The notes under the pieces were generated by a model. It had not been told where the DNA came from. It saw only the letters and a list, made by a program, of their open reading frames with translations, and searched no databases. Of a stretch of 64,000 bases of DNA, positions 27,690-52,165 are shown one piece after another. The position numbers and the translations under genes were made by a program. How positions within the stretch are numbered: the first letter of the stretch is position 1; each line of letters opens with the position of its first letter. The DNA is from Apostichopus japonicus (taxonomy: Eukaryota; Echinodermata; Holothuroidea; Aspidochirotida; Stichopodidae): the NCBI RefSeq assembly GCF_037975245.1, contig NC_092567.1, forward strand, positions 11,814,376 through 11,878,375. Direction: 5' to 3'.

Positions 27690-29010
27690 GTAAGTAATTG
27701 TAATATGTTAGCATATCTGTTAGCAGTGCTGTCTCCTATATATTGGCATGAATGTTAGCATGTATGTTAGCATTTACAGTATGATAGCATACATGTTAGC
27801 TTGTAGGCTATGTAAGCAGTATGATACCATACATGTATGTTAGCATGTATATATGTTAGCATGAATGTTAGCATGTATGTTAACATGTACAGTATGATAG
27901 CATGTATTGGCATGAATGTTAGCACATGTATGTTAGCATACTGTACATGTTAGCTTGTAGGCTATGTAAGCAGTATGATACCAAGCATGTATGTTAGCAT
28001 GTATATATGTTAGCATGAATGTTAGCATGTATGTTAACATGTACAGTATGATAGCATGTATTGGCATGAATGTTAGCACATGTATGTTAGCATACTGTAC
28101 ATGTTAGCTTGTAGGCTATGTAAGCAGTATGATACCATACATGTATTTTAACAGGTATGTTAGCATGAATGTTAGCATGTATGTTAGCATGTATGTTAGC
28201 ATGAATGTTAGCATGTATGTAAGCATGTATGATAGCATACATGTACAGTATGTTAGTATGTATGATTGCAAGTATGTTAGCCTGTATGTAAGCCTGCTTG
28301 TTTGCGTGTATGTTTGTATGTTTGTTAGTGTGTATGCTACCGTGTATGTTACAGTAGCATGTATGTTAGCATGTTATATAACCAGTATGATAGCATGTAT
28401 GTCAGGCTGTATGTTAGCTTTTTTTTTAGCATACATGTAAGTTAGCATGTATGTGAGCATGTATACATATATGTTACTGTAGCTTGAAGGCTATGTTAGC
28501 ATGTATGATAGCAAGTACTGTATGTTAGCATACATGTGTGTTAGCATGTATGATAGCATGTATGTCAGCATGCTTGTTAGCCTGTATGTTAGCCTGTTTG
28601 TTAGTGTGTATACATGCTAGCGTGTATGTTAGCATGTTATAAGCAGTATGATAGCGTGTATGTCAGGCTGTATGTTAGCCTGTTTTTAGCATACATGTAA
28701 GTTAGCATACATGTTAGCATACATGTATACATATATGTTAGCTTGAAGGCTATGTTAGCCTGTAAGATAGCAAGTATGTTAGCAAACATACTGTACATGT
28801 TAGCATAGCATACATGTATGTTAGTGTGTATGATAGCAAGTATGTTAGCCTGTATGTTAGCATGTTAAAAGCTGGTAACGTCTACGTCATGCTGTCAGTC
28901 TGTTTGCTAGCATACTGTACATGTTGTATGTTAGCACATGTATGTTAGCATGTATGTTAGCATGAGCATACAGCCAAATTAGCATGTATGTTAGCATGTT
29001 ATAAGCAACA
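27690..29010. repeat. Minisatellite with 12-bp unit and 154-bp higher-order repeat
   Basis: The unit is about TGTTAGCATGTA. Larger blocks containing GTTAGCTTGTAGGCTATG and AAGCAGTATGATACCA recur at about 27795, 27949 and 28103, exactly 154 bases apart. Because 12 is a multiple of three, the array makes long spurious ORFs rich in YVSM. Confidence 0.92.
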
Positions 29011-33289: not shown

Positions 33290-34570
33290 TACTTATGGGT
33301 GTCTACAGGTGCAGTGCTGTACCCATTGACTACTGGAAATGTACATGTATATATGTACAGTATACTCCAGTAGTCTATGAGTACGGCAATGCCCCCTTAC
33401 ACACCAAGAGCCTGTACAGTATTACCTTAAGTATAACTGTAGACACTACAGTCTTAGTCATTGAGTATTGCACTGCTCAGGACTTACACACAGAAGTATG
33501 ACTTTACTGTATAACAGTAGACACTAAAGTAGTCATTGGCTACTGCACTACCCCCTAACAAACCCACAGGTACATGTATTTCTTTCTATAACTTTACATA
33601 CTGTACTACAGTAGTCATTGAGAACTGCACTGCTCTTTGCACACCCAGAGGTGTTACTTTACCTATAACTGTAGACACTACAGTAGTCATTCAGTACTGC
33701 ACTGCCCCCTTACACACCCAGAGGTATTTACTTACTTGTACAGTACATTAGTCATTGAGTACTGCACTGCCCCATAACACACCCAGAGGTATTTACTGTA
33801 TAACTGTACTTACTATCCAGTACTGCACTGTTCCATTGCGCACCCAGAGGAATTACTGTACCTTACTGTATAACTGTAGACACTACAGTAAGTTAGTCAT
33901 TGATTACTGCACTACCCCCTAACACACCCACAGGTATTTCTTTCAGGAACTTTACATACTACAGTAGTCATTGAGTACTGCACTGCTCTTTGCACACCGC
34001 CCAGAGGTATTACAGTACTTTACTGTTTACAGTAAATGTAGACACTATGTAGTCATTGAGTACTGCACTGCCCCCTAACAAACTCACAGGTATTTCTTTC
34101 CTGTATAACTTTACATACTGTACTACAGTAGTCATTGAGAACTGCACTGCTCCTTGCACACCCAGAGGTATTACTTTACTGTATAACTATATAGACGCTA
34201 CAGTAGTCATTGAGTACTGCACTACTTCTTACACACCCAGAGGTACTGTATTACTTTACTGTATACTGTATATAAATGTTGATACTACAGTATTCATCAA
34301 GTACTGTACTGCTTCCCTACACACCCAGAGGTACAGTAATACTTTACTGTATAACTGTAGACACTACAGTAGTCATTGAGTACTGAACTGCTCCAGTTGC
34401 ACACCCAGAGGTATTACATAACTTTATAATTTTCCTACTATTCTTTGAGTGCTGCACTACTCCTTGCACACCAAGATGTTTTACTTAACTGTATAACTGT
34501 AGACATTACAGTAGTCATTGAGTAAGTGCACTGCTCCCTTTCACACCCAGAGGTATTACTTTATATGAAT
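33290..34570 (+). repeat. Minisatellite with unit of about 100 bp
   Basis: About a dozen degenerate units with the wording CACTACAGTAGTCATTGAG, TACTGCACTGCCCC, TTACACACCCAGAGGTATT and ACTTTACTGTATAACTGTAG. It ends about 190 bp upstream of the Ig-like exon. Confidence 0.9.
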
Positions 34571-34756
34571 GGACTGTAATGCAACATTTGTGGACAATGG
34601 AACGTATACGTTTATATGATCTGTCTAATATATGTTTTCTTTAATGTATGGACTTCTTTACATGTTAAGTTCGTATTGACTAATGTACAACGTATTTAAG
34701 TTATTTACCAGTCATTGCGGGAAAGAAACCCACAATTTCTCCTTTTTCTTGAATAG

Positions 34757-35106
34757 CCTATCCAAGCCCACCATACATAATTGTAGAAGGATGTGACCAT
34801 ACACAGTATTGTGTACTTGACGTCGCAAGAGCAGGAAACGTGGCGTGTTCAGTTCGTGGAATACGACCAGAAGTCAAACTCCAATGGAGAACTTAGGAAA
34901 ACTATCCTGCTCTATCTCTAACAGAGCTGGAAAGGACATCAACAGAAAAGTGAGGAATCTTTGACATTTCTCTTACAACAAACTTCAAAATGTTATCAGC
35001 GCCTGAAAGAGGGATCACATTAGAGTGTTTGATATTGTACGACAGAATTCAGATGTGTTCAATTCCTCTATAAAAGTAGCAAGAATAGACCTTAAAACGA
35101 CATATG
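34757..35106 (+). pseudogene. Exon: Ig-like ectodomain, with stops and a frame change
   Basis: Preceded by a pyrimidine tract and TTGAATAG, and followed by donor GTAGGTG. In the frame from 34759 the peptide has QYCVLDVARAGNVACSVRG and IRPEVKLQW, the first Cys and Trp pattern of an Ig fold; after the breaks comes GIFDISLTT and ITLECLILYD, holding the second Cys. TAG at 34894-34896 and TGA at 34951-34953 interrupt this frame. Near 35075 the frame changes; the last part, SIKVARIDLKTTY, ends in phase 1, which fits the transmembrane exon. The domain is clear but cannot be translated as written. A skipped exon, sequence errors or true decay are all possible. Confidence 0.7.
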
Positions 35107-38100
35107 GTAGGTGTTTGTTTGCTATGGATGCTTTGTTATGGGGTTTAAACTAAACTATGTGCGATATGTTTATATTTTAAAAGGATGTTGGGATTCAGAG
35201 AAATCAAATAGCCAGGGTTTATTGACCTGAAATTACATTAGAATTGATCTAAATATTCTCTTTTATCTAGTTCTAAGAGGTGAATGATTTTGCAATTGTG
35301 AGATCCAGTAGCCTGCTCGTGTACAGTAGTTAGACTACAGCCTGTATGTTCAGTGAATTTTATGTCTGATAGAATTATGCTTCTAAATGAATGGCTAGTT
35401 TGCATCTCGAACGACTTCTTCTTCGATTCGACTTACGGTTTCTAAATCTGACTTTAAGCTCCATCAGAACAACTTTATTGTTATCTGCTTCTTTATATCG
35501 CCAAAAGGCTAGTCTTTTCTCACACACTGATGAATACTGATATGTATAGTCTTAATCTATCTGAAATTGGTGCCTAATCTTCATTACCACTTGGAAAGTG
35601 CAGTTGATTTTATTGAATAATTGTTCTGTCTTTGTGATAATGTTAACCCTTTCAGATCCTCACTTAATATTTTCAAATGCTTAATTTCAAATTGCCATTT
35701 AACATGTGTTTTTCCTATTTACAGACAACAAGGGGACTTCGGGTTCATCGACAGTTGCTGTGGTTACAACCATAATTGTAGTACTTCTAATTCTGGTGGT
35801 TTTGGTCTCTGTATGAAAGGTACCATGGTGCATAACACAATTACTTTGCAATATATAGCAAAGTTTGTTAGCTATTTTCTTGTATTCTATTGTATTCATT
35901 GCATCTACATTATCCTTATTGACTAACAGAAAAGTATAGTAACTATTTTTTTTGTTTTTTATTTTGATGATAATAGTAACCGTTGCATTGATGATGGCAT
36001 TTGTGTGTATGTGCGCCTTTGTGATGCCCAGCTTGTAAACATGATATCTCAAGAAGGGTGGTTCGGACTAATATCATATGTAATGTGTAGACTTACCACA
36101 TTGAGTACAAGAAGCTTATTGTTTTTGGTGAAGGTCAAGGATCATTTGGGGTCATGAGGAGTCAAATTGTAAAAACCTGGTAAACACAATATTTCAAGAA
36201 AGGAAGGTCGGACCAACTTCATATTTGGTGAGGTTAAATTCACATTGAGTACAAGAATCCTATTGTTTTTGGTGGGGGTCAAAAGCCATTTGAGGTCGCC
36301 AAGGATCAAATTGTGAAAACCTTGTAAACACGATATCTCAAGATGGGAAGCATGGGCATACCTCATATTTGATTTGTTGAAGTACCGAATTAAGTCAAAG
36401 AAGCCTATTGTTTTTGGTGGAGGTCAAAGGTCATTTGGGGTCACTAGGGGTCAAATTGTGAAAACCTTTGAAACACGATATGTCAAGAAGGAAAGCATGA
36501 ATAGACCTCATATTTAATGTGTAGAAGTGCCTTATTGATTAAAAGAAGCTCATTTTTTTCGGGGAAGTGGAAGGTCATTTGGGGTCATCAGAGGTCAAAT
36601 TATGAAAACCTTGTAAACATGATATCTCAATATTAGAAGCTTTGGCAGATCTCATACTTGGTATGAAGGTGTATAGCATTGAGTCAAAGAAGCCCATTGA
36701 TATGGTGGAGTTCAAGGTTCACTTGGGACAACAGGTCAAATCGTGAAAGCTTTGTAAACATGATCTTGCAAGAAGGGAACCTTGGACAAGTTAAGGAGCC
36801 TATTATTGTTTTTAGTGGAGCCCTAAGGTCATATGAAGACAACAAATGCTTAACATTTACTCCACTCCCCTCTTACCTGTCTCTCTACACTAACACACCT
36901 TCCTAACATAATATCATGAGGGAAGCTTGGACAGATCGCATATTTGGTATGTAATCGTACAACATTGGGCGGAGGTCAGTGGTCGTTTGAGTTCACCAGG
37001 TGTCAAACTGTGAGACCCATGTTTTACACAATATTTCAACAAGGACAGATGTTGTATTTAGTATCTTGATGTATCTGTCACATTTAGTATAAGATGCCTG
37101 TTGTTGAGTTGAATGGTAATGTCAGGACAGCCTCTGTCATTGTGACTTTTTTTTCCACATCACACTGCTTTTCACTGTATTACTACTGTAAGTTCAAGTG
37201 TGTTGTACACCCTCACTGTACATGATGTCAGATTCATGAAGAAAACTGCTGATGTTACATCATCAAAACCACGGTGCATCTTTGCATTCTGGTTAATTTA
37301 CCTTACATAAATTATTCCTGCAGTGTTAAACTTCCGAAAGAGGCGGAGGAAACTTGTGGAAGAAGAAGAGGTAAGACCGTTATATCTGAAAATATAAATA
37401 ATATCAAGGGAAACAAATATATAAAGCTGTTAAACATACTGTAAAGCTAATTCAGGCTAAGATTCCGGGGGCACTTAAATATTCCCTACTGAGGACTGGT
37501 GGTGGTATAGAAACAAATGCAGCTGGATGGTTGTATGTTAGTAACGACGAGCCTTTAATCTTGTTATTACATGCAAAGAATATAACCCATAGATAAACTT
37601 AGGTGAAGAAACACTCGCTGAGATTTCGTAATCTATTACTATATAATCAGCCACAGTACATACAATAGAAAATGGTTACAAACGTGTCACTTGTCTGATG
37701 ATCAACAAACACGTGGGAAACTCAGAGATTACACATGATTAAACAAAATATACTATATATTAACTTGCACTACCTCTATTTATGGAGCATTTTTGATGCC
37801 GGAAGTGAAGAACTGAATTAATCGATACACATAATATGTTACAACAACAAGTTAACATTATACTCATTTGAGATAGCATTCCTACCAATGGATAGTTTCA
37901 TGTTGTAATAGATATAAGTAATACACGCAACTTTCAGGAAATCCTCTCCCTACTAGTTTTGTGTTGAGGATAACATGTACATTATGATCTTCCCTGCAGC
38001 AAATACCACCCCATTCCCCCTGTTCTTAGCCAAAAAACAGGGAAGATTAAATATCTACCTGAGTTGGTAATGCTAGCCATACTGAACTCTCTTCTGCACA

Positions 38101-41100
38101 AATTCATGATTAAAGAAAAAAAGTGTATTTTTTCAGTGGTCAAGCCAAACTTGTCTTCACACACAGGAAAGTAGTACTGGCCATTAGAGCACTTGTGTTT
38201 ACAATCATACAGGTGACTGGTCAACTCAAGGATGAATCCTAATGACGGTATTTGGGGTAGTTTATGCTATCAAGTAACACATTATTAATGCTTGAGTGAA
38301 TTTGGAGAGGACAGTTTTTCGATAGGCTAGCTTGACTGCCATGTAGACTCTGAGTACATTTATATAACAATACGGTACAACCTACGGTTACTTAGCAACA
38401 TCAAACATATTATGTTAACTTGTATCCTATTTAATAGAAAATGTTAATTACATAGTCAAATTCTTTGCAAATAGTGACTTCAAATTTTTTTTTTTATTGA
38501 TAATATGTTTGAAAGTATCATTACCTCTCTCTTGTTTAGATGTTGCCCAAGACTAAGACTCACTGCACACCTGGTAAGTCTGATGTACAAGTTATTGCAA
38601 GCTGAGTGCAGTGAATGCTGAAACAGTACCTTCAATTGCTTTAAGATACTGTTAAATACCACGCATAAATTAAAATAAATTTCAACATACATATCCTCTA
38701 CAAATGATAATGTATGATAATGTTACTGATTCCAGTGACTTTATCGCTGTCATATCAAATTCATGTTGAGGTTAACTTTACCAAATGGTGATTAATTAAT
38801 GACACAATAATTTCACGGTTCCTTTGTATTTCAGTATTTATGGTTTATGAAAGTAAGATATGAACATTCTGATTACATCAGAATTCATCCCACTTCAGAT
38901 AACAATTATGACCCAATGATGACTCCGGAATGGTCTAGTCCAAGAATTTTTTTTTTTACACATCTTTGCCAAATGTTTGAATCGATTGTCTCTTTGCAAT
39001 TAAAGCAGCTGTTCAAATAACCATTCAGTTTGAGAACCAATCTAAAGTTAAGCAATTAAATTAACATATCAAGACATTATTTTCTACAGCAAAATTTGGT
39101 TGAGCAGCTACCAATAATGACATTCCAATTAAAAATAAAACAACTTTCTTCTGACCATTTTCATTATCGAATTTGTTCCTGATATAAAATAAGATTGTTA
39201 CTAATCACACTTTTCTGGTTTCCTACAGAGGAGGAACAATTCATCAAGGAATTAAAGGCAAAGTATAAGTTACTTTATCACTCCGTACAACCATTGCCTT
39301 ACATCAGAGACAGAATGTATTGTGTTGATAAGGGATATGTTTATAGCGGCATTGAACGGTTAGTTCAACAAGCACATGGAAACAAAATGTGGAAACTTTT
39401 AGAGTCACATCATGAACTACTAAAGAAACCTGAGAATTGTGGTAGGCAAATTATAGAGGGCGAACCTGGATACGGAAAATCAACACTGACACTACAGCTT
39501 GCATACGATTGGTGCCAAAGAGTTCCAAAATCCCCTTTAAGTAACGTACCGGTACTTATTTACCTGCGACTAAGACAACTGAGAGGGGTGAAGTCAATAT
39601 ACCAAGCAATACAGCGTTTTATATTACCCAGAGACTCAGATCTGAGTGAGGTTATAGTGGAATCAATCATAAAGAATTGTTCAGGGGTGTTGGTTATTTT
39701 GGATAGATTTGATGAATACCCTGATAAAGACGATCAAGAGACTGATATTTCTCTTATCCTTCGGAGAGAAATGTTGCAGGATATAGACGTCATTCTGACT
39801 ACCAGGCCTTTCTACTTACCGAAAGAATTTGCACCGCATACTGATCGAATACGTTTAACAGGTTTCAACGAGGACATCCGAGATCAATATATTCGGAAAG
39901 CAGTTGTACACGGTGACGAACAAGCTGCCAGGGAAATAATACTTAAACTCCAACGAAACCCTCTACTTGGTGACTTGTGTCAAGTTCGTTTGTTGTTTGT
40001 TTTGTTTGCTCACATGAGCCACGAGAACAAAGACTTGAAGACATTCAAATCCGTTACTAGCTTCTTTCGTAATGTGATAGCTTGCTTACATAGTCATTTG
40101 ATGAACAAACCAATTGAAAAGGTATGTTTTGACTTAAAACATGATGAGTTGAACAAGGTTGCTTTTGAGGCATTGAGCGGTAGAAACCAACTGATTGTGT
40201 GGGATAGTACATCCCTGAGAAAACGACTTGGGGATGACTTTTATGAGCAGTATCTTAGAACTGGAATATTTTTTGAGGAAGAAATACTGACTGGTGATCA
40301 ATTTCTCTACAAAAAGGAAGTCAGATTCTTCCACAAATTGTTCTGTGAGTGGTATGCTGCCCACTACATTGCTGATTATCTATCTCAAGAATCTTCAACC
40401 TCTGCCACAACAGAGAGCCAGAGTGTAGCTGAACTGCTCCGTTATTTGGATCCCTTTGAACTTCACTATGTTTACAGATTTGCCTGTGGTCTTAATAAGA
40501 CTGCTTCGGGTAAAATTGTAAATTATCTGCAAAACAACCTTAAACATAAAAAGTTTGCTATGATGTGTATGCTGGAACAAGACTATAAAAGTGAGAATAT
40601 TGTGGATGCAATCACAAAGTTGGCCTCTAAAGTGGTCCAGGTACATGGCGATGACAGTCAACTACATCAGAGATCTACTTTACAAGTTTTGGAATTTGCG
40701 AGTGCAACACAGGTGAAGTAATTTTCTTTCACTGCAATCAAGACATATTTCCTCAGGTTTGTGGTCATGTGGTCACGGTCTTGTACTGTTATTGTACAAT
40801 ATAATTATAATCAGTGTGTCCTTATACCTACAAAAAACAGTGCAAAACTTCCAGCCTCCACCGGGATTCGAACCTTTGCCCTCTCATGTACTTAAGTGCT
40901 TGGTTTATTTTTCTGCCAAGTCCTGTTTTGATTTTTCAAGTTTGCGCTGCATTTCTTGAAAGTTATATAATAGCAATCGATTCATGAGATCAGATTGCCA
41001 ACTGTATACATATCTTCAGAGGTTGAATCCCAAAATAATGACTTAATGACCATACAGTAGGAACGTAAACAATTTCAAATGATAACAACACTTAGTGTCG

Positions 41101-44100
41101 ATGTCATTACCAATAATGTCACTTGATTTATTGCTTTCATGTGGCCATACTGCCAACTAATAAATGAACACACTATGACATAGACAATCCAAACCATATT
41201 AGAATAATTTGAGTTTTAGTTGTGAGGTCCCCTTTACTGCCTTTACGGCATGGTAAGCTACTGTTGAAATGTCATTTTGACCTCACAATGTAATTGTCTA
41301 AGGAAAGTAAAGTAAAGTAAAATTAATTGATATTCATCATAAAATGACAATATAATAAAATGGATTACAGCATCTCAAAAATAGGTTAAAAAAAGTTATC
41401 TATGTATCATACAATTCAAAGTCTTAATACTTCTACTGTAGGTAAAAATGATCGCCTAAACCGTTCTGTCCACATACCCTGTACGTGGGATTGTGTAAAA
41501 TCTAGGTGGTTTCATGAAAAAATCAAAGAGAGGGTGATCGGAATCCTCGACTATAGAAGAAGCACACTGACATATTATACGATCAATGAAATCATCCGTG
41601 ATGGTAGAATACAACTTGATGGATTTATTCAAGTAGTCAAATTGTCCTTTAGAAACAGGATGATAACCAAATTGGGCCACAGTACACAAGGATGGACAAC
41701 ACCATTGTCTGAAAAAGACAAAGCTGCTTATCAAAATCTAAGCCAAAGCCGGCGAGCCTACGAATACAATATGATCTCTGTTTAGCTTTTGATGCCACAT
41801 TGTTCATGTGGGTATTCCAATTAAGTAAGCGTGATACAACCTCAATCACATTATTGTCAATGTACAATGGGGCATGGCTTTGCACTGCACGAAAATCAAC
41901 AATCATTTCCTTGGTTTTCTTACCATATATAATTATCCTTGCACCAATTCACAGCATACTCTATGGCTGGGAAATAATTTGATAGACACTGTGGGTTTTT
42001 ATCTGTGCACATCCCAATTATGGCAGTATCGTCTGCATACTTCAAGATATAAACATTGTCATAATATGAGACTAATGAATCAGTGTAAATTTCAAAAAGT
42101 ATATAATGGGGACAAGCAACAACCCTGTGGAACACCAGTGTTATTAACGAGACTATCACTGTTGACACTGTTACAGTGAACAAACTGTGTGCGATCAAAC
42201 AGGAAATTATAATGTAGTATAATTACATTGTCACTGACGTGCGCCTTCATAATGTCCAGTAATTTAGAACAGCAAATGGTATTAAATGCATCCCCCATCG
42301 ATCTGCCACTGCGATATGCGAATTGGTATTTTCTCCAGTGATGGAATACAGTTCAATATTTCGCTACGAAGAAGTTTCTCGAAACACTTCATTAAAACAC
42401 TGGTCTAACTCAATTACATAAAACCCTCCATCCGTTCATAATGTAGCATGATTCTTTAACTATAGGATAACTACAATACATTAACCTTGTTCATTTCTCT
42501 AACAGATTACCATAGCTTGCCTACACCTGACCATGGCCTTCAAGGAGTGTGATGGATACACCATTTTACTCCAATCTGGCCTCTCTCTCTGTCCTTTAGT
42601 GACAGTAGAAAAGATACACATAGAGACTGAGAAGGAGGGAAATGAACCGTATGCAATATCAGAGATACAGTTAACAAACATCTTCTGTTTTGCGCTTCGT
42701 TGTCAGTCTGTTAAGGAGCTGTCGTAAGTTGAATCTGTTGTTTTTGTTATCATACTATGTACTGTACCTACTGTAAAAATATTCCCTCTTGTTACATTTA
42801 AAATAACTGATTTACCAAAGTAATAGAGATAAACACAGAGCTCTGACAAAACTGGTAAATGATGTATCATAAAGAAATACACTGTTATCAGAAATTTTAG
42901 TGTTACAATCATGAAAAAAGATGAGTTGTTTATGTTGGTATGACTAGCCATCACAGCATTAATTATAACAAAAAAAAACAATGACAGTTGTGAATTTGGA
43001 AGGTAAGAATAATTTTCATTACCATTGGGAAAATGTCTTACATGATATGATAAGTATCATCAAAGAGGCCAAGGTGTAATTGAACCCAACGAATTTCTTC
43101 ATGAATTTTGGAGGATTGAATCAGTAATGTGGTAGTATGAGATAATCCCCACTCTTAAAAACGGAGGACAACATACTGTGCGTGGAATTGTATTACAAAC
43201 AAGTTTATTTTACAATCTATCTGATTGTCTGCTCACCAATTCCTTTCATGGACTCCTAGCACGACCTAAGGATGAGCCTAAACATACTGTACATTACACT
43301 ATTACCTTCCTGCAGTTATGGGCTCATTTGTTCATATTAAACAGCAAAATGATGTCCGCAGTAAGGTGTTTCGATTCCAATCATTTTGAAGCACTTCCTA
43401 ATCATTTCCTATATGGAATTGGCTTCATAGCAAGACTGTTTTGCTATCTTTCTCTCATGTTGGTTTGTTTCTTCCTTTCTACTTCAAAGGTTCAGTGAAT
43501 GTCTGCTGCCTCTTTCGCCCTCTCAAGAGTCTATCAATACAGAGATGATATCTAGGAAAATAAAAAGTAACTATAGATTCTGTCAGTATTGGTTGATAAT
43601 TTGATTAAATCTAGTCATCAAGGAGTTGATATGAGAAATAATATATTGTAACATTTTCATTAGAAGTGCAAAAAGCAGATTGTAAGCCTTTGGTAAAAGC
43701 AAGAATGATGCAAAAGTAGAAAATATGACAAAATAAATTGCTTTGTCAGGAGGATTACATTGATTTCAGGAGCAGTAAGTGTTAACCGCCTGAATGATTT
43801 GTCCTGCTCGACACATTCTTTTGGTACAAGCTACTGTAATGGCAATGTTATTAACCTATCTATACTTAGGATATTTGTTTAAGAACATTACTTAAGTCTA
43901 AACACTGAAATCGTGTCGTTTTAAGTCAAGCCATATTTATTGGATGAAAAACACCAAAATCAAAGTTAGGTCTTAAGTGTTCCATTTTTAGTGTAGAGGT
44001 ATACGTTTCATTTATGTGAAAAAGTTAGTTCCTCTCCTTCATAAATCCTAAAATGTCTTTAAATTTAACATATTTCTACATACTTGTCATCATAGTATAC

Positions 44101-47100
44101 TGGCGAGACTACGGTTACAGCCTGAATCTCCATTCTGGTGATTGGGAGGTATGATTCTTTTGCTTTTAGTTGCCAGGGCTTTTTGTTATTGTGTGTGTCC
44201 ATTAGTGCAGAACAAGTTGGAAGTACAGTAGTGTAAATGCCGACAACCACTAGACAACGACAGAGATCGTGACATAGCTTAGGGAATATAATGTGTAGTT
44301 CTAGATTGTGGAAACAATATTTTAAAATATGAGTTGGTCATTGGACATTTTTGTTTACTAATTAATTCAGATCATTAATCAACTGAAGATACTCAAGGAA
44401 ACCTTGTATGACGTTTCTTTTCTATTGAGAGTATTTTGAACTTTTCTGTACTGTACATAGTGATAAGTCTTGTAGTATGAAAAGGACGTTTTGCTGGATG
44501 TGTTTTTGACTTATTTTCATAACAATGGATTTTCTTTAAGCTATAGTAATACCAATGATACTACAATTAGAATAGTAAAAAAAGTAAAAACAGAAAGATA
44601 AGTTTACACTGCTTCATTTTGTGTTTATTTTCAGGTTGATAATATCAATATTATTGAGTCACTGTGTTCAGAGAGGTTACAGATCTGGACTAAAGATAGT
44701 AAATTACAACAGAATTGTACTTTGCAGCTACTGAAGAACGCATCTAACAATGATGTAAGTCAGTGGTCAAATATCAAAATCCCTATGATGGACTAGATAT
44801 GTCAAAATACATCATCCCCATTATGTACTAGATATGTCATCCCCATTATTAAGTGTTTTATGAAGATACGATAGTATTATTTTGCATAATAGCAGTCAAA
44901 TTATTTTAAAAATTTGATTCATTGTCTTTCACAGTGTTACGAATGCAGGATTTTGCATCCGGAACGCAAAATTCCAGAGATGGACGCAAACACTTCACAT
45001 TGCGTCCCGAGGATGGAAACCCTAAGTACACACACTCAGAACTAGGCCTATATGCAAAACATAACAAAACAAATTTTTGAATGAATATCTTTTGAATGAA
45101 CATTATTTTCCAAACCTCAGGATAACCAAAATTTCTTCCAATCATTCTGATGATTGAATTTGTCTTAAAGCAAATAAATCATAGCAATCAACCACAAGGT
45201 ACGGAGTATAACTCGTTCTAACAACATTTACATTACAGAGATTTACATGCAAACAGTAGTCATGGTTCTTTTCCAAACTTCCCATGATCTGATTGGCTAA
45301 TAGTTCCTTACCTATTGTCTGGAAACATTCTTATGTCTGTAGTGCTCAATGAACACATTATGTAAATTAACAACATGTACATTACTTTCCCGTGTAGAGA
45401 TGACAATGTTTGTGCTATAAGCTATCATATGTGTGCATTCAAATATCATAACATTAGGCCCTGTTGACAGTCATGGTATGAAATTTTGGTTGAATTTTCT
45501 CTATGATATCACGTAATATTTGAGTCATTGTTTTGATCAAAACAATTTGTGAGTTGAGACTAGTTAGGAATTTTGTAGGAACCTAACATCTCTGATACTT
45601 AAAACTTATTTTGACCTCACAGTACGTTTGTTCTCTCCACATTGAGAGTTGCTCAAGTAATATGTACATTGATACCGCAGTACTTTCTTTGTTGCAAAGT
45701 TTTTCGCACTGTCTTTGACCGTGTGCCCCACTGATTTATTTTTCTTGTGCAACATTCATACATCGTCAAAAGTAGCTATTGAAGCTTGAGTTTTTATTGG
45801 ACTTCGTGTGAAGAGTTATTTACATACTGTAAGGGGCAATGGGTCGGAACTGGCCGGGGTTGTGCCAAAGTGTCAATGGTGGTTGAGGAAAGGGAAAACT
45901 TTGTTCAATTTAAATAAAACTTATGAATAACATTGCATTGGTTAACTGTTAATGGTAACTTACGACAGGGCTTCATAAAAGTTGTGAGCAAGTAGTTCTA
46001 GGCCTTTAGGGATGTGTTTTGTGTCGTCGAGATCTATTTATATTTTCTACAAAATTTAAGGGGCTCAATCAAATGAGTTAATCATGCAGTGTTTTTACTT
46101 TTACATGTTCTCTCTAAGCACTCCTATTACTTAACATGAATTTCCAACATTCACAGCATATGCATAGCCTATAACATTTCACACACACTTTGTAAGGAAG
46201 TTGTTTACCATGCAGTAGTATGGATTGTGTGATCCATACTACTGCATGGTAGTATGGATTGTGTGATCTAGGAAAGCATATATGGTAACTAGTCTGCGGT
46301 AAAATTTTTTGCTTCGGAACTTTGAAAATCATTGTGTTGGTGTATAATAGTTACAGGTTTATCATTTGATGATTTTTTGTGCATGGCATAGACCTATCAC
46401 TATCGGCTTCTTGTCGTGCACAAGCCAATGTGCTTTCAGGGGTCATAGCTCAGTATTATGTGTTCCTGTAGAGGTATTTTACATTGCATTTTTCATGGAG
46501 GACTACAGGGACGCAAGTTTTTCTGAGCGAACTCAAACGCTGTTAAACTTTTAATCCTAGTAACTATACTGGTCTTCACAGTGTACTAACTTTCACGCTA
46601 AATGTACACATAAGATAATCATATCATAATGAATTATTTTTCCAAGGAGTACTCCAGCTAGTGGCACACATAACACAAGATGATTTAAAGATTACATATC
46701 ACTTTGTAGTGACAATATATCTATAATTCATAAGGTGTGTGGTTTGACACAATAACAACAGGACGTTTAACATAACTAATTCATATGAAGAAATTTTCTC
46801 ACTACATTCCTAGTCTAACAGTCCATATTTCATCCAGGTTATCATTCATATATCAGGCATATTCCCCATTTTATGTTTCATGCATTTATTCACTTGAGTG
46901 TTACTGTCTTTTTATACATTGTGTACTATGTTAGATAAAGAAGTTGGATCAACCCATTTTAATAATGGTGAAGAAAAATGTTGTTTCTGTTAATATTAAT
47001 GTTAGATTTCAATAAACAAACTTAAGCCTAATCGTAATAATGCGAGGAGTGGATTTATGCTAGTATTAAGATGGATAAGTGATACCTTCAGGAAAGTTAC

Positions 47101-50100
47101 TGGCCACAGTAGGTTATAATCGTATAAATAATCGATATAGCTCTAAATCATTTCAGTGTTGATTGAATCGTATGTTACCTTCCTTCAGATCCCCATCTTC
47201 CATCTGGAGCTTCTACAATCCTTCTCCAAGGCTGATGCTGGTAACATCATCCTCTGTTCAGGGCTACAATTGTCCTGTCCTGTGTCATTAAAGAAGCTAT
47301 CGATAGATACATATGAGGAGGGAAGAGAACTGACAGAGACAGAGGTTGCTGGCATATTGATGTTTGCACAACATTCACAGCGATTGGAAAAGCTAATGTG
47401 AGTATTTCAATGAATATCGTATCTTAGTAATGCGTACCTAGATACCACTTTCACACTTTAAATAGGCATAAATACCTACAAAGTTTTATCACTATTTGTC
47501 AAGTGAAAAGATACTCTCACAGGACAGAACTTTATTGTTTCTGAATTGAGTATTTACAGACCCATTTTATACCTTCGCCTTGTTGTTAAACTCTACATTT
47601 GGATCGTGAGGAGTGGTGCTTTGTTCGGGTTAATTGTCATTTTAGGGACTTGGCAGAAAATAAGATATATTTCAAATATTTCGCAAAACAAATACTATAT
47701 CATTGAATGACTTTCCTTCTAATGAATAGCTTTACTCATTGTTTATATATGATATACAGGTTAGCTTTATCGTCTGTGTTATTGTCAATGCTTTACTCGT
47801 TCAGGTCATTGACAGTGATCGTCTGAAAAATTTACCAAAAATAAAATCGGATAACTTTTTGTGAATTGTGATCAGGCAATTGACCGACTCATGGTTCTGC
47901 TTTATTTCACAGGTTCTTATTTTGTCTGTTGCCCCAGTCTATTGCTGCTGAGGATATTCCTTCAATATTGAAGTCAAGGAAAGTGAAAGGTACTTTATGC
48001 GAATGCTCAGGTTTACTTCTGTTGATTGATCAATATCGACAGTTTGTACATTAATGTTATGATCTGATACTGATTACTATTATTACAGCAGCCAATCATT
48101 GTAGTCAATAATGTAAATTGTATTACTTATCATTGGTTGCCTGATGTTATCATTAAAATAATAAATTAAATGTGTGAAACATCAAGCAAAGGATGTATAT
48201 TTATAGACGATTCTGATATGATGGAGACATCAAGCCTTCTAACTTGTTTTATATTCAAAATGAAATAAAACTGTTAGCATGCTGCTTATCCACTAAGGAG
48301 CCTGTGTAAGAGAATGTGTAAAAATAAGTTGGCCTGACATTTCAATCCTACAGTAGCAGGAACTTCTTCAGAGGCTAAATGAAAAGTATCAGTTACAGAA
48401 GGGACAAAAACACACACAGAATACAAACAGGTTAATGAGCAGGGTGAACACAAAGAGATAGATGTAAGAGGATTAATAGACAAGGGATGGAGAGAAGAAA
48501 GAAACCAACAGGGGAAGAGGAGCGGTAGGAGATACAGAGAGAGGATTAAGGGATCAGGGTAGGGAGTAAACTGGAGGACACAGACAGAAATGTGTGGAGA
48601 AAAAGAAGGGGGTGGAAGAGAGCTATACGGGAAGAGGAGTGACAGGGGGGACAAGGGGAGAAGGGGGGGAACAGAAGAAAAGTTAGTCATGCATGTCCTT
48701 CCTGAATGTTGAGCTCATGAGGTTGAATGGTGTGAGGGCTTTGCATCCACAGTCTCCCTCTGCTGTTTCGTACCAGGTCAGGGCGGCTACCTAAGGAAAC
48801 AATCCCCTGTTGGGACATGTTATTCATGGTATGGTTGGGAAGGTTAAAGTGTGTAGTCTTATATTCTAATACATGCTTCATGCAGTAATAAGCTTGATAC
48901 AAGACTCAAGAGAGGTGGTACAGCTGGCTGAGATGTTGTTTTGACTTGTGTATTCAGAGTGTCTGTCACTGCTAGACAATTATACATACACTAGGTGTCT
49001 AAATATAAACATACCACCACAGAGATATGGTGAGGAATTAAGAACCAGACTGAATTAATATTAGATACCCTCAGGAAGTTCTACAGTTACAATAATAATA
49101 TGCAGTGAGGGTAATTTAAGACTGGGAATATCTCCAGATCAGGGTTTACATGTAATACATCCAGTATGTTACATATGCTGTGCATCAAACATTTGCCTTT
49201 GCATGATACATGCCAGTGAAGGGGATCTAACTATTATCTAATGTTATGCTTTTCTAAAGAATTTCAGGTTAAATGTTTTAAAGAAACAATGATACACAAA
49301 CTGGTTTATCCCGTTTCAAAGCTTTCCGCATAAATGAAAGTTACATTTTTCACTCGATAACAGAACAGAGAATGATGGCAAAACTTGCCCTTCTGCCTTG
49401 TTTTGCGCATGTTCTACATGTTAATGTAATTATGTAAAATAGCTGGGCGTAGCAGATTCTTGTACAGTCTCTTCACAATAAATTGCTCAAGGCTTATGTT
49501 ACTGTAGTGTAGGTCATTGGGGTGTCTGGGAGTGAAATAATCATGTTTTATTTTTATTTTGTTAATCATGGCATTGTAACCTCTTTCATTTTAGTCACTT
49601 GGTTACCGTACGATAGTGGCAAAATTTATGACCTCAACCTTGAATCTGGTAGATGGATGGTGAGTATTAACAACTTATTAAAACATGTTTCACTAACCTA
49701 TTGCTTGACAACTGGTTATATAATTATCTGGAAAGAAGTATTAATGTATTCGAAGAGTCGGAACTCCCCAACAACTGTTAAGTGATTTTCAAAATGAATC
49801 AATAAAAGAAAGGAACAGTTTGACAGGTAAGATGCATCAATATATTTTGCTCAGATTGTTGAGGTGGACTCACATATTGAATCAAGTAACATGAAAAATT
49901 ACACAGAATAACATAATGTCTGTGTAACCTTACTTTGACCAGTGTTCGTATCGAATGATTGTTTTTCAATTAACAGTTCAGGGGGAATATGGAAAAATGT
50001 TTAACCGGTTAGTTAAAAATGTTTAACCGGTTAGTTTTCAGAGTTTTTTTTTTGTGGTCACTCAAGTACATTAAATTAACATTGATTGCAGTACCGTCGT

Positions 50101-51829
50101 GCATCTTGCCTGAAAGTAATAGATGAAAACCTAATGCAATTATCTTCTGTATAACAACAGTTGAGTTTTCGAATCCAGAATCAATTGCTTCGCACTGTCA
50201 GTTACAACTGCTGCGTGTGTGTCCAGTATCGTATAGTCTTTGCATTAACTTTTGATCAGCGTCAGTCTCCGATACCATTACATAAATATCAAAAAGGTTG
50301 ATAGGCAACAAAGAACAGTTGATAGATCATTCATTCTTGTCACCTTTGCTCCTGTAATTACCAGATACTGTACGTGCTCCTTATTGCAGTTTGAATATTA
50401 ACGTCATCAGAGTGTCGTCAAAGTGTCACATGACATATATTATTGATATAACTTTAATCCCAAGCATCGCTGATATTCATCCCAAAGTAACATTTTACTT
50501 TGTAGCATACTTCCTTCTTTGTTTGAATTGAAAAGAAAAATTAATTCTTGATTCACCTCATAACTGTCGGGGTGATTTTGTGACGTCATATTGGTAAAGC
50601 TCATAAACCTTCCTATTGTATCTAACTTATAGTATGATGATCGTACGCTCGATGTGACAGATGCAGTTTACAGCAAGGAGGTAGGTAATGTATTACAATA
50701 CACACAGATTTAGTGGTTTATCTGGATGAAAATTGTAATGGAGGAGATTGATCATTAACCTACAAAATAATCTGAACATTTTTTGGCATGTATAGAAATA
50801 TAATAATGTTTGAAAGGGACGATTAAAAAAAAATGGTCGCTGTGTGCACGTTGAGCACAAAAGAATAGATTACATATCGCAAATAGGAAATGTTGAGTTT
50901 TGCTATCTTTATATAAGTTACATAAGGCTTGCTACTAGATCTTAGAAAACATTAGTGATTCACGGATTCATAAGACATAACAAGCAATTAGCTTCTTAAT
51001 TTTACTCTATTAACTCATATTACTATGAAAAAAGTAATAATAAGGGAAACATTAAGTTGATTGCTCCATATTTTCTAATCTCATTTGATTGACAATGTGA
51101 TTTCACAAATCCCTAACAGCCATATACTTTTGCAATTTGAATTATTTTGTCATACAATAAAATTACAGCTGTCATTTATGATTGACTTCTTTTATACAGG
51201 TTAGCGAATTCCGGGAAGTATGGCAGTAAGTTATTTTTATGTGTATTTTTTCGTACGATTGGTGATTTATTGAGTTAACATACACAAATCCCCATCATTA
51301 CGATAATCCCTGCCTATAGCAAATACCACCCAAATCCCCTGTTTTTGGCCAAAAACGGGAGATTGAATATCTACCGGAGTTGGTAATGCTAGCCATACTG
51401 AACGCTCTTCGGAACAATTTCACGATTAAACACACAGTGTATCATTTCAGTGTCAAGCCAAACTTGTCATCGCACACCAGAAAGTAGTACTGGCCATGAG
51501 AGCACTTGTGTTTACAATCATACAGGTGACTGGTCAATTAAATAGGTGCACTCAAGGATGAATCCTTATGGCAGTATTTGGGGTAGTTTATGATATCAAG
51601 TAACAAATTATTAATGCTTGAGTGAATTTGAGGAGGACTGTTTTTCTATAGACAGGCTTGACCAATAAGGGAGTAGTATACATCATGCTACTTCAAACCC
51701 CACCCCCCACCCTCCCCCCGTGAAGCAGCATGATATATACTACTTATGGGTTTAAGATATACAAAGGATACACACTTGTATGTAGGATGTGTATATCAAA
51801 TAGGATGCAGTGACGGCCATACTTAATTG

Positions 51830-51867
<38 letters not shown>

Positions 51868-52165
51868 ATATATATATTATATAACAATATCTATTTAAGA
51901 ATGAATTATAGATGACGTCGCTGCAGCCTGTTCAAACCAGCAAAGTCAAAACTATATTTTTTGAATAGAACTGGGTAAAACAATGTTAAACTTTATTTGC
52001 ATTATAACGTAGATGATCTACGGTAGATCTATGTTCACATTTTGTTTCAACTGTTGCAATGTATCTTACTGCAGGGGTACAGACTGTCAAAAGGCTAGAG
52101 AAAGGAAACTGAAGGTACCCGAAGATGATACACAGACGCCACTGCTAACTGCCAGATCAGTATAA
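34757..52165 (+). CDS. Ig-TM-NACHT receptor-like gene (15 exons; outer part degraded)
   Basis: The only convincing host gene. Exons: 34757-35106 (Ig-like), 35725-about 35819 (transmembrane), 37324-37370, 38540-38573, 39229-40712 (NACHT), 42506-42723, 43490-43566, 44096-44148, 44635-44754, 47189-47397, 47913-47989, 49595-49659, 50633-50680, 51200-51225, 52075-52165. Every intron is GT-AG, and the last 13 exons join in one frame of 848 codons plus stop, strong evidence that they form a coding gene. NACHT NTPases of the STAND class switch by nucleotide-driven oligomerisation, usually in innate immunity; an Ig ectodomain joined by one membrane helix would make this a surface sensor. The Ig exon has two stops and a frame change, and the membrane exon is one base out of phase. 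Translation from an internal ATG (for example 38540, giving 833 aa) would yield a cytosolic NACHT protein. The first exons and promoter were not found. Confidence 0.8.
35725..35819 (+). CDS. Exon: single transmembrane segment
   Basis: Acceptor TTTCCTATTTACAG. Entered in phase 1, as the Ig exon requires, it encodes a Ser/Thr-rich stalk and a strongly hydrophobic segment (VVTTIIVVLLILVVLVSV) of about 20 residues. Two donors are possible, GTATGA at 35811 or GTACCA at 35820. In this frame a TGA lies at 35814-35816 and both donors leave phase 0, whereas the next exon needs phase 1, so one base seems to be missing near 35815. Another frame stays open to the second donor and does match phase 1, but gives a polar Cys/Asn/Ser-rich peptide. 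I prefer the membrane frame because the next exon is a typical basic stop-transfer sequence. Confidence 0.6.
36040..37020 (+). repeat. Tandem repeat of about 144 bp, six to seven units
   Basis: Intronic array with the wording ACACGATATCTCAAGAAGGG, AAGCCTATTGTTTTTGGTGG, AGGTCAAAGGTCATTTGGGG and TCAAATTGTGAAAACC. Each unit carries AGGTCA hexamers, some as AGGTCA-A-AGGTCA. It is a different family from the one at 29-33 kb. Confidence 0.88.
37324..37370 (+). CDS. Exon: basic juxtamembrane segment
   Basis: Acceptor ATTATTCCTGCAG, donor GTAAGACC, 47 bp. Entered in phase 1 it encodes LNFRKRRRKLVEEEE, a cluster of Arg/Lys followed by Glu as expected just inside the membrane (stop-transfer). It leaves in phase 0. 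Confidence 0.8.
37985..38336 (+). repeat. Intronic dispersed repeat, copy 1 (copy 2 at 51305)
   Basis: About 350 bp shared with 51305-51660 in the same orientation, including GTTGGTAATGCTAGCCATAC, TGTGTTTACAATCATACAGG and GGGGTAGTTTATG. Both copies sit in introns of the same gene. Family unknown. Confidence 0.88.
38540..38573 (+). CDS. Exon: linker, possible internal start
   Basis: Acceptor CTCTCTCTTGTTTAG, donor GTAAGTC, 34 bp, phase 0 in and phase 1 out. The exon begins with ATG (MLPKTKTHCTP), so a transcript starting at or upstream of this exon could make an 833-aa cytosolic NACHT protein without the Ig and membrane parts. Confidence 0.75.
39229..40712 (+). CDS. Exon: NACHT NTPase core (NLR/STAND family)
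   Basis: A 1,484-bp exon between acceptor GGTTTCCTACAG and donor CAG/GTGAAGT, phase 1 in and 0 out, entirely open. Domain order: a short helical lead (EEEQFIKELKAKYKLLY), Walker A GEPGYGKST (39459-39485), Walker B VLVILDRFDEYPD (about 39687-39725, acidic DE pair present), sensor-type VILTTRPF (about 39790), LTGFNED, NPLLGDLCQVRLLFVLF as the NACHT-associated helical motif, a winged-helix-like part and FFHKLFCEWYAAHYIA, matching the conserved FxHxxFxEfxAA motif. All nucleotide-binding motifs are intact, so ATP or GTP binding is likely. This is the NLR type of NACHT. No CARD, death or pyrin domain was seen upstream in the recognised exons. Confidence 0.93.
40845..40930 (-). mobile_element. tRNA-like SINE fragment
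   Basis: On the minus strand GGTTCGAATCCC is a perfect pol III B box / T-arm motif, followed by GGTGGAGGCTGG. No full tRNA cloverleaf could be folded by eye, so a SINE or tRNA pseudogene is more likely than a tRNA. Confidence 0.5.
41400..42420 (-). mobile_element. LINE fragment (CR1/Rex1-like) in an intron
   Basis: Minus-strand coding remnants of a non-LTR reverse transcriptase: AFNTICCSKLLD and NTGVPQGCCLSPL (about 42290-42100), LKYADDTAI (about 42045-42020), NNVASKAKQRSYCIRRLAGF and YCGPIWLSSC (about 41810-41655), and a C-terminal VEDSDHPLFDFF (about 41550). Several frames are needed, so it is dead. Unrelated in sequence to the LINE at 6.3-10 kb. Confidence 0.85.
42506..42723 (+). CDS. Exon: LRR-like module 1, part a
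   Basis: Acceptor CATTTCTCTAACAG, donor GTAAGTTG, 218 bp, phase 0 in and 2 out. Encodes about 72 residues with VEKIHIETEKEG and CFALRCQSVKELS, spaced like the strand-helix-strand pattern of ribonuclease-inhibitor-type LRRs. It is homologous to the exon at 47189 (same phases, similar length). Confidence 0.85.
43490..43566 (+). CDS. Exon: LRR-like module 1, part b
   Basis: 77 bp, acceptor TCTACTTCAAAG, donor GTAACTA, phase 2 in and 1 out. Encodes FSECLLPLSPSQESINTEM and ISRKIK, aligning residue for residue with the 77-bp exon at 47913. This match, plus the exact phase fit, supports an exon that would otherwise be overlooked. Confidence 0.8.
44096..44148 (+). CDS. Exon: LRR-like module 1, part c
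   Basis: 53 bp, acceptor TGTCATCATAG, donor GTATGATT, phase 1 in and 0 out. Encodes YWRDYGYSLNLHSGDWE, matching the module-2 exon at 49595 (IYDLNLESGRWM). It restores the phase needed by the next exon. Confidence 0.8.
44635..44754 (+). CDS. Exon: module 2 leading segment
   Basis: 120 bp, acceptor TTATTTTCAG, donor GTAAGTC, phase 0 in and out. Its 40 residues (VDNINIIESLCSERLQIW, then CTLQLLKNAS) resemble the last 40 residues of the NACHT exon, so the duplicated module includes this helical segment. Confidence 0.85.
46207..46250. repeat. 19-bp perfect hairpin with a third partial copy
   Basis: ACCATGCAGTAGTATGGAT and its exact inverse are separated by TGTGTG. The loop and half-arm are then repeated directly (AGTATGGATTGTGTGATC at about 46251-46268). 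Intronic. Confidence 0.9.
47189..47397 (+). CDS. Exon: LRR-like module 2, part a
   Basis: 209 bp, acceptor TACCTTCCTTCAG, donor GTGAGTAT, phase 0 in and 2 out. Encodes about 69 residues, with SLKKLSIDTYEEGREL and AQHSQRLEKLM giving two LRR-type strand motifs flanking a helix. Paralogous to the exon at 42506. Confidence 0.87.
47913..47989 (+). CDS. Exon: LRR-like module 2, part b
   Basis: 77 bp, acceptor CTTTATTTCACAG, donor GTACTTTA, phase 2 in and 1 out. Encodes FLFCLLPQSIAAEDIPSIL and KSRKVK, the counterpart of 43490-43566 with identical length and phase. Confidence 0.85.
48300..48700. repeat. Purine-rich intronic tract
   Basis: Long GA/GGA-rich stretch (especially 48480-48675) producing a spurious Pro/Ser/Leu-rich minus-strand ORF. 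The leading part (CTGACATTTCAATCCTACAG, then CTTCTTCAGAGGCTAAA) looks like a dispersed repeat end. It could form triplex or H-DNA. Confidence 0.7.
49595..49659 (+). CDS. Exon: LRR-like module 2, part c
   Basis: 65 bp, acceptor TCTTTCATTTTAG, donor GTGAGTAT, phase 1 in and 0 out. Encodes TWLPYDSGKIYDLNLESG and RWM. It is four residues longer than the module-1 counterpart at 44096. Confidence 0.83.
50633..50680 (+). CDS. Exon: C-terminal segment 1
   Basis: 48 bp, acceptor TATCTAACTTATAG, donor GTAGGTAA, phase 0 in and out. Encodes YDDRTLDVTDAVYSKE. No domain assigned. Confidence 0.75.
51200..51225 (+). CDS. Exon: C-terminal segment 2 (26-bp micro-exon)
   Basis: Acceptor CTTCTTTTATACAG, donor GTAAGTT, phase 0 in and 2 out. 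Encodes VSEFREVW. The following exon supplies the one base needed to complete the next codon. Confidence 0.72.
51305..51660 (+). repeat. Intronic dispersed repeat, copy 2
   Basis: Same family as 37985-38336, same orientation. This copy carries a small extra segment (near 51535-51550) and scattered substitutions. Confidence 0.88.
51830..51880. repeat. TA microsatellite
   Basis: TA dinucleotides with two interruptions, in the last intron. Confidence 0.95.
52075..52165 (+). CDS. Terminal exon of the NACHT gene
   Basis: Acceptor GTATCTTACTGCAG, phase 2 in. Encodes GTDCQKARERKLKVPEDDTQ and a short tail, ending in TAA at 52163-52165. It is Lys/Arg-rich and then acidic. The last codons and the stop lie inside a 30-bp tandem repeat. 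No poly(A) signal was assigned with confidence. Confidence 0.75.

Follow-up and report, generated by a model that had tools for sequence, protein, structure and literature searches.

A headless, amplified clade of NACHT genes in Apostichopus japonicus and its probable origin from an Ig-bearing receptor

A 64,000-nucleotide stretch of Apostichopus japonicus DNA (contig NC_092567.1, positions 11,814,376 to 11,878,375; hereafter the window) contains a gene in which a broken immunoglobulin (Ig)-type exon, a transmembrane (TM) helix exon, and a basic juxtamembrane exon precede an open exon for a NACHT ATPase. The question raised by this locus is what became of its outer half, and whether the inner half still has a use. 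The original prediction offered two answers, either a surface receptor family of which this copy has lost its ectodomain, or a former receptor reused as a cytosolic protein. Here the two merge into one, a loss in a single lineage followed by amplification with an intact inner half. The explanation favored, with some reserve, is that a surface receptor was truncated a single time and then amplified, and that the result has been retained as an intracellular NACHT protein whose translation starts internally.

The shared Ig relic

The relic of the last (membrane-proximal) Ig exon is located at positions 34757 to 35106 of the window; this and all other exons of the window gene are on the plus strand. 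It is interrupted by a TAG (34894-34896) and a TGA (34951-34953), both where the original prediction had placed them, and the late frame change of that prediction is a 2-bp insertion near 35037. The first 95 codons of the relic share 87% identity (E 5e-52) with the intact Ig exon of a paralog on contig C16, and this match rules out a chance open reading frame. Its assignment to the Ig class depends on this homology and on the double-Ig exon that neighbors the intact exon in the paralog. Contigs are referred to by number (C7, C16, and so on), and the window occupies 11.81-11.88 Mb of C7.

The genome searches scored the best candidates, so the counts given here are lower bounds and a missing match is weak evidence. 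The NACHT exon gave at least 86 scored matches. Seventeen are on C7 with 93-100% identity, one of them incomplete. Six are on C16 with 90-92% identity, accompanied by a broken C16 piece at 92%, and the remaining 62 have 46-57% identity.

The relic is kept in 16 of the 17 C7 copies; none was found in the stretch read for the copy at 8.87 Mb. Both stops recur in every one of the 16 relics and in none of the six aligned C16 exons. The loss of the ectodomain proposed for the window copy is therefore real but not private to it. In ten of the 16 relics the 3' end and splice donor are also gone, and eight frameshifting indel events were counted across the set (a ninth listed event precedes the exon). 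When the last Ig exon is itself searched for, it is intact in seven of seven close C16 matches and interrupted by stops in all 16 close C7 ones. Sixteen shared relics rule out chance or an accident of one copy. The original prediction had asked whether some paralogs lack any upstream Ig exon; the close paralogs have one, as the relic in 16 of the 17 C7 copies and in intact form in all six C16 copies.

Directly 5' of the relic is a satellite array with a 65-75 bp unit (33368 to 34563, plus strand). A junction region (34563 to 34622, plus strand) follows, and homology to the intact C16 receptor begins near 34622. Homology to the intact gene starts at this same satellite-adjacent junction in all five C7 copies compared (the window and four others). 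The roughly 60 bp between the satellite and the start of homology were not found in either of the two C16 stretches by exact short words. Upstream sequence of the receptor was not recovered: the window has no match to the first-Ig or double-Ig exon, nothing on its plus strand matches the signal-peptide region of C16 at E 1e-10, and no double-Ig exon lies near the headless copies (those without a readable ectodomain) among the best 150 scored candidates.

The 16 full C7 NACHT exons form one clade with a support of 0.993. In a protein tree, the C7 rows are nested among Ig-bearing copies; this tree is a quick one, with four C7 rows and several weak or open branches. The stops are common to the 16 relics, the junction to the five copies compared, and the C7 exons form one clade nested among Ig-bearing copies; a single loss of the outer half that preceded amplification is therefore the most likely course. 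At the level of sequence, the shared stops, the five-copy junction, the monophyly, and the open inner exons can be regarded as established.

The intact receptor on C16

At 32.29 Mb of C16, a satellite precedes a gene whose exons are, in order, signal peptide, first Ig, double-Ig, last Ig, TM, basic, short ATG, and NACHT. These eight join without a stop and encode four Ig domains, with the TM helix at residues 471-492 and the Walker A motif at 598. In the C16 paralog, the double-Ig exon scores above the Pfam cut-offs for both V-set (31.5 against 26 bits) and ig (26.1 against 21.8), whereas its last Ig exon falls short, with a best score of 17.3 against 21. The name of the first Ig comes from its homology to an exon in a different copy, for which V-set gives E 3e-5, just below the cut-off. 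The copy at 33.02 Mb also has the signal peptide (94%), the first Ig (83%), and a satellite. The full order from satellite to NACHT is thus complete in one copy, with the upstream part present in a second. Arrays similar to that of the window are located 2-7 kb 5' of the double-Ig exon in several intact C16 receptors.

The Ig-TM-NACHT exon order predicted for a gene family in this animal is borne out beyond C16. An intact last-Ig match is found upstream, on the same strand and within 20 kb, for 34 of the 86 NACHT exons (33 within 15 kb), and 31 of those 34 also have the double-Ig exon. A broken last-Ig match lies upstream of 16 NACHT exons, all on C7, and for the other 36 no last-Ig match was detected within 20 kb.

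From these data a course of events can be proposed. The parent would have had a signal peptide ahead of four Ig domains, then a membrane helix and a basic linker, and finally a NACHT ATPase with its C-terminal tail. The C7 founder would have lost everything 5' of the last Ig exon, with the break beside the satellite, through a deletion or a truncated duplication. The last Ig exon, left with neither the signal peptide nor the Ig domains outside it, would have decayed. The headless form would then have amplified to at least 17 copies on C7.

Several further features of the family can be described. NACHT exons span approximately 2-12.5 Mb of C7, and all 36 listed there, which belong to two clades, point away from a position near 5.5 Mb (minus strand below, plus strand above). 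A listed NACHT gene of a 47%-identity type lies 22-37 kb downstream of six of the 17 headless copies. A second NACHT clade, with 11 rows and a support of 100, has no detected Ig exons and is distributed over C16 (2-3 Mb and 37-39 Mb), C22, and C7. The double-Ig exon is intact in eight close matches, the query included; seven are on C16 and one is on C9. The C9 exon (13401948-13402598) is 90% like those of the C16 receptors and has a satellite approximately 3 kb upstream, and C9 has no row among the NACHT matches listed.

The inner half and its possible product

Exons of the window gene were inferred from splice sites in genomic DNA. The 13 exons from 37324 to 52165 were rebuilt as a single open frame of 2,549 bp, as originally predicted, with the stop codon ending at 52165. 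All 13 exons have an AG acceptor, and the first 12 have a GT donor. The basic juxtamembrane (linker) exon (LNFRKRRRKLVEEEE) is at 37324 to 37370, and a short exon opening with ATG is at 38540 to 38573. The NACHT exon (39229 to 40712) is open and carries the predicted Walker A motif GEPGYGKST. It matches Pfam NACHT with E 1.3e-17, and its nearest solved structures are NLRP3 (E 5e-9) and NLRC4 (E 3e-8).

The C-terminal exons are exon 4 (42506 to 42723), exon 5 (43490 to 43566), exon 6 (44096 to 44148), exon 7 (44635 to 44754), exon 8 (47189 to 47397), exon 9 (47913 to 47989), exon 10 (49595 to 49659), exon 11 (50633 to 50680), and exon 12 (51200 to 51225), followed by the last exon with the stop codon (52075 to 52165). 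Exon 12 and the last exon are described from the window copy only. Exon 5 was chosen among several candidates by the 77 bp left over from the originally predicted total; it resembles by eye the 77-bp exon 9, as exon 8 does exon 4. On the 851-aa model, no Pfam model for CARD, PYD, or LRR was matched up to E 1, and a diverged LRR may be present. The same search gave only NACHT and weak NTPase models, with no N-terminal effector domain and no match in the C-terminal part. In the intron after the NACHT exon, open frames on the minus strand (41649-42222) resemble by eye a LINE-type reverse transcriptase. Open frames on both strands at 28087-28440 encode a short repeated peptide motif and are, by eye, probably a simple-repeat artefact.

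The NACHT exon is open in 16 of the 17 C7 copies and disrupted in the copy at 8.28 Mb. By parsimony, the 16 full exons have accumulated 121 nonsynonymous, 72 synonymous, and no stop changes. Under neutral shares of approximately 0.70, 0.257, and 0.044 (nonsynonymous, synonymous, and stop; interpolated at a kappa of approximately 2.7), about 8.6 stops are expected among these 193 substitutions. The missing stops are significant (p 1.5e-4), as is the synonymous excess (p 2.5e-4, or 9.7e-4 with stops omitted). The stem of the clade shows 18:8 nonsynonymous to synonymous changes. C16 and deeper branches show 119:80, a ratio similar to that of C7. Between pairs of copies, dN/dS reaches 0.46 for C7 and 0.36 for C16. 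No indel is present in the 16 full exons, against the eight frameshifting events in a relic approximately one fifth as long. In three of three C7 paralogs, exons 4-9 have open frames and splice sites, as do exons 10-11 in the two that are covered, and exons 4-7 are covered and open in one C16 copy. The inner exons are open and, from these substitution patterns, moderately constrained, which suggests that the near-intact inner half still has a job.

The strongest rival explanation holds that segmental duplication spread the C7 copies as pseudogenes, which are too young to have decayed. It fits the broken relic, the frame break in the TM exon of the window copy, the broken linker acceptor of the 8.87 Mb copy, the disrupted 8.28 Mb exon, and the 93-100% identity among copies. 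It also fits the divergence data. Compared pair by pair, introns differ by 4.5%, the NACHT exon by 2.4%, the short ATG exon by 0.75%, the linker exon by 7.3% (15 copies), and the relic by 2.8% (16 copies). Plain divergence was dropped as proof of constraint, as the relic is nearly as close as the NACHT exon; the argument for constraint is built on the stops, the indels, and the silent-site excess. On those three counts, and by the intact exons 4-11 and their splice sites wherever covered, the pseudogene explanation does poorly and is considered unlikely. Retroposed copies were ruled out by the retention of introns.

The next rival is a membrane-anchored NACHT protein without an ectodomain, made through an unseen first exon spliced to the TM exon. 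The hydrophobic exon of the original prediction is present at 35725 to 35819 and ends in ATGAAAG, but its frame break in the window copy had gone unremarked. Among the 16 C7 copies in which the exon was found in the stretches read, 14 have it open and all 16 have the AG acceptor. In the window copy and in its 99%-identical counterpart at 7.40 Mb, the exon is one base short and reads into a TGA after the helix. No such first exon was found, although a new, unrelated one was not searched for, and the window lacks the signal-peptide match noted above. Membrane anchoring is accordingly given a low probability, below that of the pseudogene explanation. In the weakest rival, the broken exon is skipped and more distant 5' Ig exons still give the window copy a receptor with Ig domains. 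Skipping would hold the frame, since the Ig exons of the intact gene begin and end in the same phase, but this rival is highly improbable given the missing first-Ig and double-Ig matches in the window and the missing double-Ig match near the headless copies among the best 150 scored candidates.

The favored explanation returns to a truncated receptor kept as an intracellular protein. The C7 genes are probably still expressed, the product being an ectodomain-less intracellular NACHT protein that starts at 38540 or 35813. Such a product should stay intracellular because it has no signal peptide. A soluble form is consistent with the lack of a signal-peptide match in the window, the TM frame broken in two of 16 copies, and the ATG at the start of the short exon in all 17 C7 copies (and in five of six C16 copies). 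The start at 38540 is possible on these grounds. The ATG at 35813, at the end of the TM exon, is present in all 16 C7 copies with the exon, and CTG takes its place in the five C16 exons found. The last open run of the relic, which is in frame with the helix, contains no ATG.

Several observations weigh against this explanation. The relic is barely more diverged than the NACHT exon, and both are under the introns. The disrupted 8.28 Mb copy was left out of the stop and indel counts. Copies that are 93-100% alike may exchange sequence. With the TM exon open in 14 of 16 copies and its acceptor in all 16, the helix could still be translated from a start in an unseen first exon. The substitution ratio of the TM exon gives no help: it is 21 nonsynonymous to 7 synonymous in C7 and 23:9, summed over pairs, in four intact C16 receptors (the copy at 31.87 Mb was dropped for a misaligned exon start), and the ratio was abandoned as a sign of helix loss. 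The linker exon of the C7 clade has 22 nonsynonymous changes to 1 synonymous, an excess in which silent changes fall below neutral (p 0.009). Lastly, satellite, signal peptide, and first Ig were not seen in the 9 kb upstream of the C16 copy at 31.87 Mb, of which just the last 159 bp match the other C16 copy.

Relation to known NACHT receptors

The original prediction called the fusion of Ig and NACHT unusual, which was too strong, as the arrangement was in print for A. japonicus by 2021. AjNLRC4 is an Ig-TM-NACHT receptor of this species with its TM helix at 483-503 and NACHT at 600-757 (PMC8699970). Its part order is that of the intact C16 relatives, and the TM and NACHT positions agree within approximately 12 residues; because of this agreement the parent can be placed in the AjNLRC4 receptor type, a match of AjNLRC4 (MN607598) by layout and not by sequence. 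Like AjNLRC4, the window model has no LRR or CARD by Pfam.

Microbe binding, dimerization, and caspase-1 recruitment have been assigned to the Ig domains of AjNLRC4, and beta-actin binding to its NACHT (PMC8699970; PMC11932488). Unlike AjNLRC4, the window clade has no signal peptide and no readable Ig domains, and the window copy has no readable helix. The first three functions map to the missing part, so a headless copy would keep just beta-actin binding. As the recognition functions sit on the Ig domains and actin binding on the NACHT, headless proteins may work inside the cell as partners or competitors of the intact receptors, through shared actin binding or NACHT-NACHT contact, although this role is rather doubtful; a free-standing cytosolic sensor is an alternative. 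Among the scored matches, 17 headless copies stand against six close Ig-bearing copies on C16. It is possible, though less likely than not, that a single loss made a surface pattern-recognition receptor intracellular, and that the resulting NACHT form, which outnumbers its close Ig-bearing kin, is maintained by selection inside the cell as a partner, decoy, or brake for the surface receptors.

This clade bears on how cytosolic NLRs and surface receptors interconvert. A single genome shows a recent conversion together with its intact parents, the shared junction, and 17 descendants. The headless form can thus be tested directly for its splicing, topology, and function beside a receptor type with assigned Ig and NACHT functions. 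Antibodies, siRNAs, and qPCR primers directed against the NACHT part of the receptor may also hit the headless relatives.

A second A. japonicus protein, AjNLR-new (2026, PMC13133943), likewise combines Ig, TM, and NACHT, and differs from the C16 type in its reported reverse topology, with Ig inside and NACHT outside. In Chiridota heheva, NLRs with an Ig V-set domain combine Ig and NACHT and are among six NLRs "with other domains"; the portion of that text available mentions no TM exon or ectodomain loss (PMC8913654). The 2017 A. japonicus genome paper describes an expanded and clustered NLR family, as found here, and in its available text mentions neither Ig exons nor headless copies (PMC5638244). 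Vertebrate NLRP3 and NLRC4 are similar in the NACHT core and differ from the window model in the CARD, PYD, and LRR that Pfam does not find there. No description of a headless amplified clade was found in literature listings and abstract openings, a set that mostly excludes subscription journals. The Ig-TM-NACHT layout is therefore a known one, and the headless, amplified C7 clade of 17 copies is new here.

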